Shown: positions 6,478 to 21,587 of the stretch, in pieces
Layout: each line of letters starts with the position of its first letter
Position numbering within the stretch: the first letter of the stretch is position 1
Source of the DNA: Bacteriovoracaceae bacterium UBA2428
GTDB lineage: Bacteria; Bdellovibrionota; UBA2428
DNA length: 21,587 bases
Direction: 5' to 3'
Assembly: GCA_002343545.1 (NCBI GenBank)
Contig: DDRA01000063.1
Coordinates: 2,944-24,530 of the forward strand
Position numbers and translations under genes: made by a program
Notes under the pieces: model-generated
Told to the model about the DNA's origin: nothing
The model's database searches: none
Seen by the model: the letters and a program-made list of their open reading frames with translations, nothing else

Positions 6478-6513
6478 TTGACGCCACGCAATCATCCGTT
6501 TACGAACATACGA
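6478..6513 (+). promoter_or_regulatory. Promoter of the glucose PTS operon
   Basis: TTGACG at 6478-6483 (five of six bases match the sigma70 -35) is followed after 17 bases by TACGAA at 6501-6506. Predicted transcription start is at 6513-6514, directly on ATG 6514, and no Shine-Dalgarno sequence is present. This suggests leaderless initiation of crr. An in-frame TTG at 6478 is part of the -35 box and is not the likely start. Confidence 0.55.
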
Positions 6514-7026
6514 ATGTCTTTTCTTGATCGTTTTCTCTCGGGATCGAAGTCCAAAGCCGAAGCAACGGGTGCCCTGAGCGCGCCCCTCAAAGGCCGCGTC
6601 GTCCCGCTCGAGCAAGTTCCGGACGCCGCTTTTTCGGGCAAGATCCTGGGCGACGGAATCGCGATCGAACCCTCGGAAGGTCTGCTCGTGTCGCCGGTGA
6701 ACGGCGAGGTCGTGCAGATCTTCCGTACGAACCACGCCGTGGGCTTGCTGTCGGACGACGGCGTCGAAGTCCTCCTGCACATCGGCATCGATACGGTCAA
6801 GATGAACGGCGAAGGCTTCCGCGCGCACGTGAAGGCCGGCGACAAGGTCAAGGCGGGCGACAAGCTCGTCGAGTTCGACCTCGACCTCGTTCGCGCCAAG
6901 GCCAAGTCCACGATCACGCCGATCGTCGTCACGAACATGGACGCGATCGCTTCCGTTGAAACGCTTCGTTCCGGAGAGGTCGCCCACGGGCAGGATCTCC
7001 TCCGCGTCACGCCGAAGAAGGCCTAA
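6514..7026 (+). CDS. crr: Glucose-type PTS EIIA component
   Basis: 170 residues, the normal size for the soluble glucose-type EIIA. This cytoplasmic protein accepts phosphate from HPr and passes it to the EIIB domain of the transporter. The paired histidines of the family are present: H74 in TNHAVGL and the phosphorylated H89 in VEVLLHIGIDTVKMNG. A flexible N-terminus (MSFLDRFLSG) resembles the membrane-associating end of enterobacterial EIIA-Glc. Further family signatures are SPVNGEV and a GD-x-L-x-x-FD strand (residues 114-121). It is the first gene of crr-ptsH-ptsI-ptsG and starts without a ribosome site just downstream of a TTGACG promoter. An alternative TTG at 6478 would add 12 residues but is unlikely. 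In enteric bacteria EIIA-Glc also signals sugar status; whether it does here is unknown. Confidence 0.95.
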   Translation: MSFLDRFLSGSKSKAEATGALSAPLKGRVVPLEQVPDAAFSGKILGDGIAIEPSEGLLVSPVNGEVVQIFRTNHAVGLLSDDGVEVLLHIGIDTVKMNGEGFRAHVKAGDKVKAGDKLVEFDLDLVRAKAKSTITPIVVTNMDAIASVETLRSGEVAHGQDLLRVTPKKA

Positions 7027-7050
7027 GTCCCGTTTTCGAAGGAGCCAGCC

Positions 7051-7311
7051 ATGGAAAAGACCGTACGCATCTTGAACGACGAAGGATTCCACGCCCGTCC
7101 CGCCGGCGTCTTCGTCAAGAAAGCCTCGGAATTCACCTCGACCATCGAAGTGAAGGCCGGTGAGGTCACGAAAAACGGCAAATCCATCATGGCCCTCATG
7201 AGCCTTGGCCTCGCCAAAGACGCCGAGATCACGATCAAGGCCCAGGGCCCCGACGAAGCCGCCGCGGTCGACGCCCTCGTCGACCTCGTGAACAAGAAGT
7301 TCCAGGCCTAG
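7051..7311 (+). CDS. ptsH: HPr phosphocarrier protein
   Basis: 86 residues, the standard HPr size. The active-site motif is GFHARPAG with H14 as the phosphorylated histidine, which takes phosphate from Enzyme I and donates it to EIIA. The second conserved site, GKSIMALMSLG, contains S45 at the position that HPr kinase phosphorylates in bacteria that have that kinase; no hprK is seen here. AAGGAG at 7039-7044 gives a good ribosome site 6 bases before the ATG. It sits between crr and ptsI with 24 and 8 bases of spacing, clearly in the same operon. Confidence 0.97.
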   Translation: MEKTVRILNDEGFHARPAGVFVKKASEFTSTIEVKAGEVTKNGKSIMALMSLGLAKDAEITIKAQGPDEAAAVDALVDLVNKKFQA

Positions 7312-7319
7312 GCCCCGCC

Positions 7320-9038
7320 ATGCAACTCAGCGGCAAGAGCGCCTCGAGCGGGATCGTCGTCGGACGCGCGCTCGTCCTCAAGATCGACCCGATCGTGATC
7401 GACCCCGCGCCGACGACGAACGTCGACGCCGAGATCAAGCGTTTCCGCGCCGCCCTCGCCAAGTCCAAGGCGGACCTGGGGCACGTGCGCGACGCCGCGA
7501 TGGCCGCCATGGGCGCCGATAAGGCCGCGATCTTCGAATCGCACATGATGCTCGTCGAAGATCCCGAGCTCACGGGCGAAGTCGAAGCCCTCATCCGCGG
7601 GAAGAACCAGAACGCCGCCCAGGCGCTGAGCGAAGTCGCGGCCAAGTTCGTGGCCGTCTTCGAAGCCATGGACAACGAATACATGCGCGAGCGCGCGGCC
7701 GACGTGCGCGACGTCACGCTCCGGATGCAACGCAACCTGGCCGGCATCGAAGTCCCCGACCTTTCCACGGTCAAGGACCCCTTCGTGCTCGTGGCCCACG
7801 ACCTTTCTCCCTCGGAAACGGCCGTCATGGACCCCAAGAAGGTCCTTGGCATCCTGACGAACGTCGGTGGCAAGACCGGCCACACCGCCATCGTCGCGCG
7901 GACCCTCGAGATCCCGGCCGTGCTGGGGCTCAAGCGCGCGACCGAAGTCCTGAAGAGCGGCGACTGGGTCGCCTTCGACGGCGACACGGGCGAGGTCGTG
8001 GCTTCGCCCGACGAGACGACGCGCGCCCAATTCCTGCGCGATCGCGAACGCCAACAGAAAGACAACGTCGAGCTGCGCGCCCTCGTCGGGCAACCGAACG
8101 CGAGCGCCGACGGCGTCGTGGTCGGCCTCATGGGGAACATCGGCAGCCCGCAGGACCTGGGCGTGCTCAAGAAGTACGACGCCGCGGGCGTCGGGCTCTT
8201 CCGCACCGAGTTCCTCTTCATGGATCGGCCGACGATGCCGAGCGAAGACGAGCAGTACGAAGCCTACAAGACCGTGCTCGAGAGCCTCGCCGGCAAGCCG
8301 GCCACGATCCGCACGATCGACATCGGCGGCGATAAGCCCGTGCCTTTCATGAAGATCGGCAAGGAAGAGAATCCTTTCTTGGGTTACCGCGCCGTTCGCT
8401 ACTGCCTCGACCACCCCGAGCTCTTCGGCGTGCAATTGCGCGCTTTGCTCCGGGCGAGCGTGCACGGCCATCTCAAGATCATGTTCCCCATGATCTCCTC
8501 GCTCGAGGAGCTCCAGCGTTGCAAGGCGCAGCTCGAGGCCGCGCGCGCCGAGCTCAAGGCCAAGGGCGTCGCCGTCGCCGAGAAGATCCCCGTGGGCGTC
8601 ATGATCGAGATCCCGTCCGCGGCCGTCATCTCGGACATCCTCGCGCAGAACTGCGACTTCCTGAGCATCGGCACGAACGACCTTATCCAGTACACGGTCG
8701 CGGTCGATCGTTTGAACGAGCGCGTGCAGGATCTCTACGATCCGTTTCATCCCGGCGTCCTGCGGCTCATCCGCACGGTCATCGAAAACGGCCACAAATA
8801 CGGCGTCAAAGTGAGCATGTGCGGCGAGATGGGCGGAAGCCCCTTGCACCTGCCGCTGCTCTTTGGCCTCGGACTCGACGAATTCAGCATGGCTCCCACG
8901 TCGATCCTACGCCTGCGCCGGCAACTGAAGGGTTGGAAGCTTCCCGAGGCGAAAGCCCTCGTGGAAGAGGTTTTCTCGAAGTCCCGTTCCCAAGATATCG
9001 AAGCCGCGCTCGAAAGGGCGCGCACGGCCCGCGCTTAA
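7320..9038 (+). CDS. ptsI: PTS Enzyme I (phosphoenolpyruvate-protein phosphotransferase)
   Basis: 572 residues, full length for Enzyme I, which transfers phosphate from PEP to HPr. The order is: N-terminal HPr-binding helical part and phosphohistidine domain (1-230), with the active histidine H188 in GGKTGHTAIVAR; then the PEP-binding barrel, with GLFRTEFLFM, DIGGDKPVPF, GVMIEIPSA and FLSIGTNDLIQY; and the catalytic C501 in VSMCGEMGG. There is no N-terminal GAF domain, so this is the sugar PTS enzyme and not the nitrogen-related PtsP. One small departure is Gly187 where Ser is common before the active His. The start ATG 7320 follows the HPr stop by 8 bases and has only a weak ribosome site, suggesting translational coupling. 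Confidence 0.97.
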   Translation: MQLSGKSASSGIVVGRALVLKIDPIVIDPAPTTNVDAEIKRFRAALAKSKADLGHVRDAAMAAMGADKAAIFESHMMLVEDPELTGEVEALIRGKNQNAAQALSEVAAKFVAVFEAMDNEYMRERAADVRDVTLRMQRNLAGIEVPDLSTVKDPFVLVAHDLSPSETAVMDPKKVLGILTNVGGKTGHTAIVARTLEIPAVLGLKRATEVLKSGDWVAFDGDTGEVVASPDETTRAQFLRDRERQQKDNVELRALVGQPNASADGVVVGLMGNIGSPQDLGVLKKYDAAGVGLFRTEFLFMDRPTMPSEDEQYEAYKTVLESLAGKPATIRTIDIGGDKPVPFMKIGKEENPFLGYRAVRYCLDHPELFGVQLRALLRASVHGHLKIMFPMISSLEELQRCKAQLEAARAELKAKGVAVAEKIPVGVMIEIPSAAVISDILAQNCDFLSIGTNDLIQYTVAVDRLNERVQDLYDPFHPGVLRLIRTVIENGHKYGVKVSMCGEMGGSPLHLPLLFGLGLDEFSMAPTSILRLRRQLKGWKLPEAKALVEEVFSKSRSQDIEAALERARTARA

Positions 9039-9071
9039 GGGGTTGCGCGGTCCACATCACAAGGAGAGCAG

Positions 9072-10595
9072 ATGATTTTCTCGTCCCTTCAGAAACTCGG
9101 TAAATCCCTCATGCTGCCGGTCTCGGTGCTCCCCATCGCGGGCATCCTGCTCGGCGTGGGCGGCGGCTTCCTCGCCAGCGCCGACAAGTCCGGCATGCAG
9201 ATCGCGCCCTTCGTGCGCACCCTGCTCGAGATCATGCAGAACTCGGGCGGCGCCATCTTCGGCGCGCTCGCGCTGCTCTTCGCGGTCGGCGTGGCCCTCG
9301 GCTTCACGGACGACGACGGCGTCGCCGGTCTCGCGGGCGTGACGGGCTTCGTCGTGCTCCAGGGCACGATGGGCACCATGGCCAAGGTCCTCGGCGTCGC
9401 CACGTCTAAAGTCATGGGCATCGACTCGATCGACACGGGCGTCATGGGCGGCATCATCGCCGGCGGCATCGCGGCCTTCATGTTCAAGCGCTACTACCGC
9501 ATCAAGCTGCCCGCGTACTTGGGCTTCTTCGCGGGCAAGCGCTTCGTTCCCATCGCGACGGCCTTCGGCGCGATCGTCGCGGGTATCCTGATGGCCTTCG
9601 TGTGGCCCCCGATCGGCCGCGGCATCGACGCCTTCTCGCACTGGGCTTCGCTCGGCAATCCGACGCTCGCCATGGGCATCTACGGCGTCGTCGAACGCGC
9701 GCTCATTCCCTTCGGTCTGCACCACATCTGGAACGTGCCCTTCTTCTTTGAAGTGGGCGAGTACTTCCAGCCGCTCCAACGCGGCGTGGACTGCACGATC
9801 GAGGCCGTGCGCAGCAACCCCGAGATGTGCAAACGCGTGACGGGCGAAGTGACCCGCTTCTTCGCGGGCGACCCGACCGCGGGCAACATGGCCGGAGGTT
9901 ACCTCTTCAAGATGTTTGGTCTCCCGGCCGCCGCGATCGCGATCTGGCACACGGCCAAGCCCGAGAAGCGCGCCCTCGTCGGTAGCCTCATGGTTTCGGC
10001 CGCGATCACGTCGTTCCTGACGGGGATCACCGAGCCCATCGAGTTCGCGTTCTTGTTCGTGGCGCCGATCCTCTACGCGGTTCACGCGCTCTTCGCGGGC
10101 CTTGCCTTCGTGTTGCTGAATCTCGCGGGCGTGAAGCTCGGTTTCGCGTTCTCGCACGGCGCGATCGATTACGTGCTACACCACTTCGTGAGCGGCCTGG
10201 GCGAGAAGCCCTTGCTCATGATTCCGTTCGGTCTCGCGTACGCGGTCCTTTACTACTTCTCGTTCCGCTTCATCATCACGACGTTCAACCTCGCGACCCC
10301 GGGCCGCGAGAAGGACGACGTGGCGACGGCGGCTCCGACGGCTTCGAAGGGCGGCGACGCGGCCCTCGCGAGCGGCCTGATCCAGGCCTACGGCGGCGGC
10401 GAGAACATCGCGAGCCTCGACGCCTGCATCACGCGCCTTCGCATCGAAGTGAAGGACGTGGCCAAGGTCGACCAGGCCCAGATCAAGCGTCTCGGCGCCA
10501 CGGGCGTGCTCGTGTCGGGCAACGGCGTGCAAGCCGTCTTCGGCACGCGCTCCGACCTGCTCCGCACGGAGATGGCCGCGCAACTGAAGCGCTAA
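9072..10595 (+). CDS. ptsG: Glucose-specific PTS transporter EIICB
   Basis: 507 residues with membrane EIIC domain (about 1-410), a linker, and cytoplasmic EIIB domain (about 425-507). It closely follows enterobacterial PtsG in order and wording: [20 protein letters not shown] at the N-terminus, [49 protein letters not shown] and the sugar-site motif GITEPIEF. The EIIB phosphocysteine is C452 in [10 protein letters not shown], followed by [15 protein letters not shown]. It should import glucose and release glucose 6-phosphate, taking phosphate from Crr. A short extra segment around residues 236-258 carries two cysteines (C241, C253) that I do not recall in the enteric protein. AAGGAG at 9061-9066 precedes the ATG by 5 bases. 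It is the last gene of the PTS operon and is followed by a palindromic element. Confidence 0.95.
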
Positions 10596-17859: not shown

Positions 17860-19299
17860 ATGACGAACGCGTCGCCGACTTACGTTTTTCCGAAGGGTTT
17901 CGTGTGGGGATCGGCCACGGCCGCGATCCAGGTCGAGGGGGCCGCGAGTCTTTACGGCAAAGGTCCCTCGAATTGGGATGTGTTTTGCCGCGAACACCCC
18001 GAGAAGATCTTTGACCGCGGGAGCCCCGAAGTCGCCTGCGACCACTACCACCGCTACAAAGAAGACGTCCGGCTCATGAAGGAGACCGGGCACACGGGCT
18101 ACCGCCTGTCGATCGCGTGGACCCGCATCTTCCCCGAAGGCTACGGCCGGACGAATCCCGAGGGCATCGCCTTCTACCGTGCGCTCTTCGACGAGTTGCT
18201 GGCAAGCGGTATCGAGCCGAACGTGACGCTCTACCACTGGGACTTGCCACAAACGCTCGCGGAGCGGGGCGGGTGGGAGAACAAGGAAACGATCGAGCAC
18301 TTCGTGCATTACGCGCGCACTTGCTTTGAGCTCTTCGGCTCGCGCGTGCGCCTGTGGTCGACGCTCAACGAACCGGCCTGGACGACGCTGCAGGGCTACG
18401 TGACGGGCTTGCACCCGCCCAACCAAACGAGCCACCGCGCGGCGATCCAGGTCTCGCATAACTTCAACGTCGCGCACGCGCGCGTCGTGAAAGATTTCCA
18501 GGCGATGAAGCGCGCGGGGGCCTTCGCCGCCGGGGCCGAGGCGCAGATCGGCCTCGTGCTCAATATGTCGACCGTCTATCCCGCCACCAAGGACCCGCTC
18601 GACGTGCGGGCCGCGCGCCTGGCCGACGGCGTGCTGAACCGTTGGTTCATCGATCCCGCGCTCAAGGGCGTCTACCCCGAGGATATCTGGGAGCTCTACC
18701 GGAGTTGCGGGATCTTGCCCGTGCATACCGAGTCCGAGCTCGCGCTCTTCCGCGAAAACACGGTCGATTACATCGGCGTGAATTACTACTATCCGCACTA
18801 CGCCTCGAGCGACGCGCCCGAGAGCGCCTATCACCTGAATACCTCGGGCAAGGCGAACGAGGACTGCGTGTTTGCCATCAAGGATCTCTTTCGCTTCGTG
18901 AAGAACCCGAGCGGCAAGTACACGGACTGGGGGTGGGAGATCTTCCCCGAGGGTCTCTACGAGTTGCTCTGGCGCGCCCAGGAATACCGGCCGGGGATTC
19001 CGGTCTACATCACGGAGAACGGCGTCGGCATGAACGAGAAACTCGACGATCAAGGCACCGTGAACGACGAAGCCCGCATCGAGTTCGTGCGCGAGCACCT
19101 GAAGGTCGCGCATCGCGCGATCTCGAACGGCGTGAACGTGAAGGGCTATTACATGTGGGCGCTCATGGACAACTTCTCGTGGGTGAACGGCTTCAAGAAA
19201 CGATACGGGTTCTTGTTCGTCGATCGCGCCACGCAGGCGCGATCGATCAAGGCGAGCGGCCGGTGGTACCGCGAGGTCTCGGCCCGCAATGGCTTTTAG
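17860..19299 (+). CDS. Family 1 glycoside hydrolase, probable 6-phospho-beta-glycosidase
   Basis: 479 residues, full-length GH1 with no signal peptide, so cytoplasmic. N-terminal signature is FVWGSATAAIQVEGA. The acid/base is E171 in STLNEPAW and the nucleophile is E386 in VYITENGVG. Near the C-terminus, MDNFSWVNGFKKRYGFLFVD holds S440, K447 and Y449, the same Ser-x6-Lys-x-Tyr spacing that binds the 6-phosphate in LacG-type enzymes; ordinary beta-glucosidases have Glu in place of this Ser. It may therefore split beta-glycosides phosphorylated by a PTS. The Trp after the Ser is more usual in 6-phospho-beta-galactosidases. No PTS permease for a disaccharide is in the window, so the substrate source is open. 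Its stop codon overlaps that of the convergent gene by four bases. Confidence 0.93.
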   Translation: MTNASPTYVFPKGFVWGSATAAIQVEGAASLYGKGPSNWDVFCREHPEKIFDRGSPEVACDHYHRYKEDVRLMKETGHTGYRLSIAWTRIFPEGYGRTNPEGIAFYRALFDELLASGIEPNVTLYHWDLPQTLAERGGWENKETIEHFVHYARTCFELFGSRVRLWSTLNEPAWTTLQGYVTGLHPPNQTSHRAAIQVSHNFNVAHARVVKDFQAMKRAGAFAAGAEAQIGLVLNMSTVYPATKDPLDVRAARLADGVLNRWFIDPALKGVYPEDIWELYRSCGILPVHTESELALFRENTVDYIGVNYYYPHYASSDAPESAYHLNTSGKANEDCVFAIKDLFRFVKNPSGKYTDWGWEIFPEGLYELLWRAQEYRPGIPVYITENGVGMNEKLDDQGTVNDEARIEFVREHLKVAHRAISNGVNVKGYYMWALMDNFSWVNGFKKRYGFLFVDRATQARSIKASGRWYREVSARNGF

Positions 19300-20088: not shown

Positions 20089-21009
20089 ATGATTCATCCC
20101 GACTGGGTGCGGACTTTCGAGACGCTCGCGCAGCTCAAGAACTTCACGGCGACGGCCCGTCGCCTGGGCATGACCCAGCCCGGAGTTTCGCAGCACCTCA
20201 AGAAGCTCGAGCTCGAGTTGGGGGTGCCGCTCGTGGGTCGAGCGCGCGGCGCCTTCCAGCTCTTGCCCTCGGGCGAGCGTTTGCTCGAGTACCTTCGGGA
20301 CCTTTCGGCCGGAGAAAAGAAGCTTCGCGAAGGTTTGCGCGAGGATCGTCCGGAGCGTGGCACCTGCCGAATTGCGGCGCCGGGGAGTCTGGGCCTGCTC
20401 GTCTACGATACCTTGCTCGAAGTCGGGCGCGAGTGTCCGGAATTGCGGCTGGATCTGACCGTCGCGCCGAGTCTGTCGGCCGAACGGCATCTCGAGCAAG
20501 GCGAAGTGGACTTGGCCTACCTCAATCATATGCCCCGCTCGGAACACCTTGAGGTGACCAAGCTCGCGGAAGAAAGGCTCGTGCTCGTGGTGCCCCGGTC
20601 GCGCGTCCGCCGGCGCGGACCGCTCGAGTGGAGCGCGCTCGCGGCCTGGGGGCTGGTGCGGCACCCCGACGGGACTCGGCTCGCCGAACGGCTGCTGTCG
20701 GCGAATTTTCCGCGGGATTTTCGGGGCGCGGATCGTTTGCCTTCGCGCACCTCGATCAATCAGATCAACCGTATTCTCGAAGCCGTCGCGGCGGGACTCG
20801 GTTTTACCGTCATCCAGGAATTGGCTTATTTACGCAGCCCCTTCCGAGAAAAAGTCGAGCTCGTGGAGATGCGGGTTCCGGTGACCGACCCCATCGTCTT
20901 GGCTCGGGCCCGGCATCGGGAATTGCCGAGTCGCTTTGCGTTCGTGCAGGGGCGGATCTCGGAGGCGCTCGGTGCTTCCCTCGGGCGTCGTCGTTCCCGC
21001 CGCGGCTAG
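20089..21009 (+). CDS. LysR family transcriptional regulator
   Basis: 306 residues, the usual LysR size. The N-terminal winged helix-turn-helix (1-60) reads WVRTFETLAQLKNFTATARR, then LGMTQPGVSQHLKKLELELGVPLVGR. A linker helix and a periplasmic-binding-like effector domain (about 90-295) follow, containing GTCRIAAPGSLGLLVYDTLLE, GEVDLAYLNH and INRILEAVAAGLGFTVIQE. The effector cannot be predicted. It is divergent from the exported DJ-1-like gene, the common LysR arrangement in which the regulator controls its neighbour and itself. Its stop codon overlaps the stop of the convergent histone-fold gene in a CTAG junction. Confidence 0.93.
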   Translation: MIHPDWVRTFETLAQLKNFTATARRLGMTQPGVSQHLKKLELELGVPLVGRARGAFQLLPSGERLLEYLRDLSAGEKKLREGLREDRPERGTCRIAAPGSLGLLVYDTLLEVGRECPELRLDLTVAPSLSAERHLEQGEVDLAYLNHMPRSEHLEVTKLAEERLVLVVPRSRVRRRGPLEWSALAAWGLVRHPDGTRLAERLLSANFPRDFRGADRLPSRTSINQINRILEAVAAGLGFTVIQELAYLRSPFREKVELVEMRVPVTDPIVLARARHRELPSRFAFVQGRISEALGASLGRRRSRRG

Positions 21010-21548
21010 AAGTCGCGGGACATGACGGTCTTGCGGCCGTCGGCGTGGGCCCGGCGGATGGCTTCGTCGCAGAGGACGCGAAGCTTGGCCGAGAGAGTCT
21101 CGAGGACCTCGGCCGAGGTGTTCATATCGGAGCGTTCGCGGATGTAGCCTTTGAGCTTGGACGCGACGACGAGGATCTCGTGCGCGTGTTCCGTCGGGGG
21201 GCTCAGCGCGAGGCCGCCGCCCGCCGCCGAACTCGTCGAAGCGGACGGGGTCGAAGCCATCGAGGACGGCGAAGCCGGCACGGTCGCGGCGGGGCGCACG
21301 ATCGTGGCGGGCTTCACGCCGTCGCCCGATTTCTCCCACTCTTCGCGCGAGGGCGAGGTTTCTTCGACGGCCCACGCGCTCTTGTGCCGGTAGACCGGCA
21401 CGTGGGCCGACCAACACGAGACGGTGCAGAACACGAGCGCGATGCGCGATTGGTTGCACGTCGAGACGTTGCACTTCTGGTAAGCCTGCCGAAACCCGAT
21501 GGGCTGTTTGCACGTGCTGCACTTGCGCCAAAACGTCGCGACTTCCAT
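21006..21548 (-). CDS. Cys/His-rich zinc-finger-like domain fused to C-terminal histone fold
   Basis: 180 residues from ATG 21548; GTG 21575 and ATG 21557 are alternatives that add 9 and 3 residues. The N-terminal part (7-60) has C10-x2-C13, C26-x4-C31, C41-x3-C45, H49 and H54, the spacing of a cross-brace zinc finger of MYND/HIT or ZZ style (FCTVSCWSAH). A linker rich in Ala, Pro and Ser follows (75-118). Residues 123-180 read like a histone fold: helix 1 (EILVVASKLKGYIRER), helix 2 (TSAEVLETLSAKLRVLCDEA, then IRRAHADG), the RKTV loop and a very short helix 3 (MSRDF) at the stop. The EAI-x-x-A-x-x-x-GRKT-x-x-x-x-D pattern matches archaeal histones. It is probably a DNA-associated protein; the zinc part could bind proteins or nucleic acid. 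CACAAT at 21561-21556 lies 7 bases before the ATG. Confidence 0.8.
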   Translation of the reverse strand: MEVATFWRKCSTCKQPIGFRQAYQKCNVSTCNQSRIALVFCTVSCWSAHVPVYRHKSAWAVEETSPSREEWEKSGDGVKPATIVRPAATVPASPSSMASTPSASTSSAAGGGLALSPPTEHAHEILVVASKLKGYIRERSDMNTSAEVLETLSAKLRVLCDEAIRRAHADGRKTVMSRDF

Positions 21549-21587
21549 CCCCCCCATTGTGGGGGCGTCAGGCACCTTTTGGTAGCG

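Follow-up and report, generated by a model that had tools for sequence, protein, structure and literature searches.

What purpose a zinc finger could serve on a bacterial histone is the question raised by one gene in a stretch of 21,587 nt from Bacteriovoracaceae bacterium UBA2428 (GCA_002343545.1, contig DDRA01000063.1, positions 2,944-24,530 of the forward strand; hereafter the window, whose own numbering is used for all coordinates). The gene, at 21006..21548 on the minus strand (ATG at 21548, stop codon at 21006-21008), encodes 180 residues that comprise an N-terminal zinc finger, a linker and a C-terminal histone fold. The product is a ZZ histone, a further member of a class described by Schwab et al. 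in 2024 as close kin of the bacterial dimer histones (PMC11390915; this and the other papers given by PMC number are drawn on in part). We put the probability at about 0.45 that its histone fold sits on DNA while the zinc domain acts as an adaptor, bringing another molecule to the histone-bound DNA.

A zinc finger and a histone fold in one protein

The open reading frame (ORF) is taken as a real gene because its third codon positions are 0.88 guanine plus cytosine (0.57 and 0.56 at the first and second) and because a protein search returns 776 matches at E ≤ 1e-3. Homologue figures refer to the best 120 of those 776 matches, in an alignment of 121 rows of which two are the window's own protein. 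An alternative in-frame ATG lies 9 bases upstream, at 21555-21557, so the protein may instead have 183 residues. Neither an NCBIfam family nor an accepted Pfam family matches the protein; the Pfam archaeal-histone model aligns to residues 150-179 only below threshold (13.3 bits vs 21.4).

The finger (residues 6-66, 21351..21533, minus strand) carries six cysteines and two histidines, all within the first 60 residues of the protein (C10, C13, C26, C31, C41, C45, H49 and H55), all invariant in 121/121 rows, which upholds the zinc-finger-like domain proposed in a preliminary description of this DNA. Sorted into sites according to PMC11390915, they give the C4 set (C10 C13 C41 C45) and the C2H2 set (C26 C31 H49 H55) by which ZZ histones are recognised, and from these ligands the finger would be expected to bind zinc, two ions per chain. 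As the class is presented in the parts of that paper drawn on, with the same N-terminal finger and a C-terminal alpha3 fold, we see no structural difference from the window protein. The sixth cysteine stands at profile position 43 in the published text vs position 45 in our rows; the published figure is perhaps a misprint. The preliminary description had also mentioned zinc-finger/histone fusions as a described and little-studied class, and the ZZ histones are that class (PMC11390915). In Bdellovibrio, loss of bd3044 is reported in a review to be lethal (PMC11318664).

The finger was modelled alone because histones fill the fold list of the whole protein, and this model is less confident (mean pLDDT, the predicted local distance difference test, of 76 vs 91-97 in the full-length model). 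Foldseek places ZZ domains first, weakly (E 0.31), with MYND and other fingers next; the six top-ranked structures are p62 and BIG ZZ domains determined together with N-terminal peptides or degrons. The comparison with MYND, HIT and ZZ fingers that had been suggested yields an order but not a class: the fold search does not separate the three. Eukaryotic ZZ domains (p62, BIG, HERC2) share the outline of a two-site cysteine/histidine finger, although the match is weak and the spacing of the window finger, ending C-x3-C-x3-H-x5-H, is unlike theirs. Pfam ZZ (PF00569) is absent from the 25 of 55 families listed for 120 members, and from 10 further proteins at E ≤ 10.

The histone fold (residues 124-180, 21009..21179, minus strand) was likewise correctly anticipated. 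Residues 121-180 match the solved histones HBb (E 3.9e-13), HLp (1.6e-6) and HTkC (9f2c, 6.9e-6), and AlphaFold2 gives a helix-strap-helix core with helices at 129-140, 146-169 and 177-179. Averaged per ten residues, pLDDT is 91-97 over residues 11-70, 44-55 over 81-120, 83 over 121-130 and 95-97 over 131-180. The low stretch falls in the Ala/Pro/Ser-rich linker (residues 67-123, 21180..21350, minus strand), which is predicted to be mostly disordered. The R172-K173-T174 loop and the R172/D179 pair belong to an RxTxxxxD motif whose R172, T174 and D179 are each kept in 121/121 rows.

The best match, by sequence and by fold, is HBb (Bd0055; PDB 8cmp, 9ezz, 8fvx), a bacterial dimer histone with the same fold, a short third helix and a cysteine in helix 2, 53-54% identical across the fold. 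Eight of its ten DNA-contact residues are identical in the window protein, one Lys is Arg and one Thr is Ala; among the relatives S130, K133 and T174 are kept in 121/121 rows and R178 in 120/121. Unlike the window protein, HBb has neither zinc finger nor linker, and the HBb type is defined by a histone domain without any further domain, which sets the window protein outside it. HLp of Leptospira perolatii and HTkC of Thermococcus, alpha3 histones that form face-to-face tetramers (PMC11390915, PMC12701072), are 36-39% identical to the window fold.

Two features that had been singled out as unusual turn out to be ordinary. The third helix, residues 177-179 of a chain ending at 180, was said to be cut short after RDF so as to change dimer or DNA contacts; a truncated helix of 3-4 residues is the defining trait of all alpha3 histones (PMC11390915), that of HBb is also a single turn (PMC11317129), though the matched HBb chains are about five residues longer, and 57/120 relatives likewise end directly after RD[F]. 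Cys160 is Cys in 106/121 rows and aligns with the cysteine of HBb.

Fused and separate forms in relatives

A survey of 293 genomes of the same phylum finds the finger in 142, as a single copy in each except one genome with a second fragment. It is fused to a histone in 116 and solo in 26; on recount, 115/116 fused genes are one ORF (G082 has a stop between the halves), and 24/26 solo ORFs are confirmed in their loci, G258 and G263 being classed by ORF length. Fifteen of the solo fingers are long-tailed and 11 short (solo-finger loci include L012, L016, L106-L117 and L119). At L042:2437-2993, finger and histone lie in different reading frames, from an assembly frame shift or a broken gene. A profile search restricted to short candidates, and hence closed to fused proteins, found 643 finger proteins at E ≤ 1e-3, of which some may be fragments; the 121 of them that were checked (P0123-P0243) have no histone match at E ≤ 10.

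A further histone is matched in 88/116 fused genomes (32/49 + 56/67). In the window's own genome (G000, 73.94% complete) it lies on contig 113, bases 1-171 (L002, L045), cut by the contig end and 44% identical to the window fold. Other histone arrangements were also seen: two alpha3 folds in tandem (66 and 69 bits) within a single ORF at L046:5010-5468 (G018 contig 34), similar tandem pairs in other genomes of family f8, such as G123, G124 and G131, and, in contigs of a viral collection, three loci (L261, L262, L263) with a histone fold related to the C-terminal domain and no finger.

Finger and histone have been joined separately among these relatives. To place the fused label on the finger tree (75 columns, 82 rows) takes 9 changes, of which well-supported branches force at least 3; on the histone tree (61 columns; 110 of 171 rows, with fused proteins thinned from 121 to 60 and HBb not a row) it takes 11, again with at least 3 so forced. 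A history of plain fission is not shown by these trees, which are built on few columns and have many weak forks. The partner histones of eight of 15 solo fingers cluster with other free histones (86/79), while seven fall elsewhere.

Genus g156 offers a local example. G296 is split (L282, contig 34) and G295 fused (L283, contig 258), the G295 finger having been joined in frame at the free-histone locus: the fused gene adjoins the same neighbour as the free histone of G296 (identity 63% for the neighbour and 81% for the histone part), and its histone part sits among free histones on the histone tree (98/83). None of the ORFs picked at the finger locus of G296 has a match on the contig of G295, in a rough automatic picking that missed the G296 finger gene itself. 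In genus g17, two of the seven fused loci (G037, G267) were compared with four histone-only loci and share the same flanking genes (37-79% identity); the four histone-only loci hold no detectable finger remnant (best E 0.94).

Linker and tail motifs

Short basic-aliphatic motifs recur in the linkers of fused proteins and the tails of solo fingers. The counts below were compared with within-sequence shuffles; they are uncorrected for shared ancestry and so not independent, and the patterns were chosen after the linkers had been read. Tails of at least 15 residues occur in 116 of the 121 solo-finger proteins examined. The pattern [IVLF][IVLF]R[RK] is found in 107/116 of these tails, 87 of them with it 2-5 residues from the C terminus (shuffled mean 1.7, maximum 6, 500 shuffles), and the consensus of 63 aligned rows is PKVILRR, preceded by a stretch without consensus. 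Among fused proteins, taken as one per genome or locus, 101/125 linkers have [RK] beside two of I, V, L or M (shuffled mean 19.1, maximum 31, 500 shuffles), commonly as APRRILV, PQRRIIR or ARIIVKP; the form without M occurs in 49 of the best 120 protein-search rows (shuffled mean 9.2, maximum 18). The motif is unevenly spread by family (f8 42/46, f12 1/7, f7 2/6), and f8 supplies 46 of the 125 linkers. From their composition, the linker and tail motifs may be the same. The window's own copy, KPATIVRP (residues 79-86, 21291..21314, minus strand), with T-I-V-R at its core, is weaker than the usual P-R-R-I-I/V/L-V. A finger-less histone at L029 (G058 contig 3) has an N-terminal tail with SPRRILVK, which resembles the linker motif.

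Possible internal starts

All seven fused g17 genes (L005, L059, L060, L062, L063, L064, L148) have an in-frame ATG at, or at most one residue from, the N terminus of the free histones in that genus, and G295 (L057) shows the same arrangement. A purine-rich site precedes this ATG, for example aaaaggagctagatATG in the fused gene of G272 and aaaggagctaaatATG ahead of the free histone of G271, although the ribosome-site match is only four bases in 5/7 of the fused genes. These genes could possibly yield two products each. The seven genomes and G295 have no other histone match, an observation to be read with the fact that g17 is one lineage. G260 has an internal site of this kind, yet it has other histones; twelve genomes of genus g34 have the fused histone only, and none examined has an internal site. 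Across the 116 fused genomes, an internal start (site match of at least 5 bases) is not significantly associated with the lack of another histone (3 and 2 against 25 and 86, Fisher p 0.09). In the window gene, no sequence resembling a ribosome site precedes the internal ATG (M97).

The covered parts of the ZZ-histone literature mention neither solo fingers nor the linker motif nor internal starts (supplements and preprints lie outside that scope). There is a wider proposal, which we consider doubtful: that finger and histone make up one bacterial chromatin system wired in three ways, namely fused, as in the window; split, with a finger gene ending in a PKVILRR-type peptide; or encoded by one gene with two translation starts that yields both the ZZ histone and a free histone. 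The linker and tail motif would then be a single docking peptide with the histone or a shared partner as its target.

What the finger may do

In the adaptor reading, the C-terminal fold would dimerise, bind the DNA backbone without sequence preference and bend the DNA, probably as HBb does, by analogy with that histone. From the end of a flexible linker that carries the short basic-aliphatic motif, the finger would recruit another molecule to the histone-bound DNA; this role and the nature of the partner are a guess. The window protein may also enter assemblies of the cell's free histone as a minor variant subunit.

Several observations weigh against the adaptor reading. Schwab et al. considered it unlikely that the ZZ domain binds histone tails (PMC11390915). 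Co-occurrence says little: a separate histone is present in all 15 long-tailed solo-finger genomes (at ≥104 bits in 14, at 87 in G265), but 132/151 genomes without a finger also match the histone, and we rejected the association as evidence of a link. The five genomes of genus g6 (G005, G013, G021, G040, G263) all carry the finger as a solo gene and none has a convincing histone (best E 0.18), so the finger can be kept, and can work, without a histone; of the other short-form genomes, three of genus g26 have divergent histones (42-45 bits), and G150, G181 and G258 match at 86-96 bits. The four g17 genomes with a histone and no finger seen indicate, conversely, that the histone does not need the finger. 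Nor do the 58 loci compared (19 with a solo finger) share a conserved neighbourhood, except within g17 and within small sets of close relatives, three Myxococcota loci among them; the two most frequent of the other neighbour families (9 and 8 of 58 loci) lie at scattered distances.

An unlikely alternative makes the zinc domain a second nucleic-acid-binding module, so that a dimer with two fingers would bridge DNA or bind particular sites. The finger is basic (8 Lys+Arg vs 3 Asp+Glu), and the basic motifs in linkers and solo tails point the same way; its best structural neighbours, though weak, are peptide-binding ZZ domains, however, and the finger's conserved aromatic and aliphatic positions, which are numerous and include W7, F40, W46 and W59, suit protein contacts or a core. 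Improbable by comparison is a sensor in which metal loading or cysteine oxidation alters the finger and thereby regulates histone binding. Eight invariant ligands would suit a sensor, whereas the five genomes with a solo finger and no histone detected speak against one, and both zinc sites look structural, as the sites of cross-brace fingers generally are. It is more improbable still that the histone fold only dimerises and has given up DNA, which would make the protein a regulator that works through its finger: the low expression and abundance of the ZZ histone of B. bacteriovorus (PMC11390915) would fit, but the DNA-contact residues are kept. Least probable, despite the identity of the first six Foldseek matches, is a finger that recognises N-terminal peptides in the manner of the p62, BIG and PRT1 ZZ domains and keeps a substrate tethered to DNA.

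The surrounding locus

The ZZ histone gene converges on a gene for a LysR-type regulator (20089..21009, plus strand), whose end overlaps the histone stop codon; the neighbourhood comparison gives no sign of a functional link between the two. Elsewhere the window holds a run of phosphotransferase system genes at 6478-10595 (EIIA, HPr, enzyme I and EIIC-EIIB) and a glycoside hydrolase family 1 (GH1) glycosidase at 17860-19299. A search with the single protein found no match in phage and plasmid records.

Implications

The evidence from the family is of more interest than the window gene itself. Because the two halves occur as separate genes in relatives, those relatives offer a route to learning what the zinc part does, and the fused, split and in-between states, together with the conserved linker and tail peptides, provide handles for finding what bacterial histone-bound DNA recruits.
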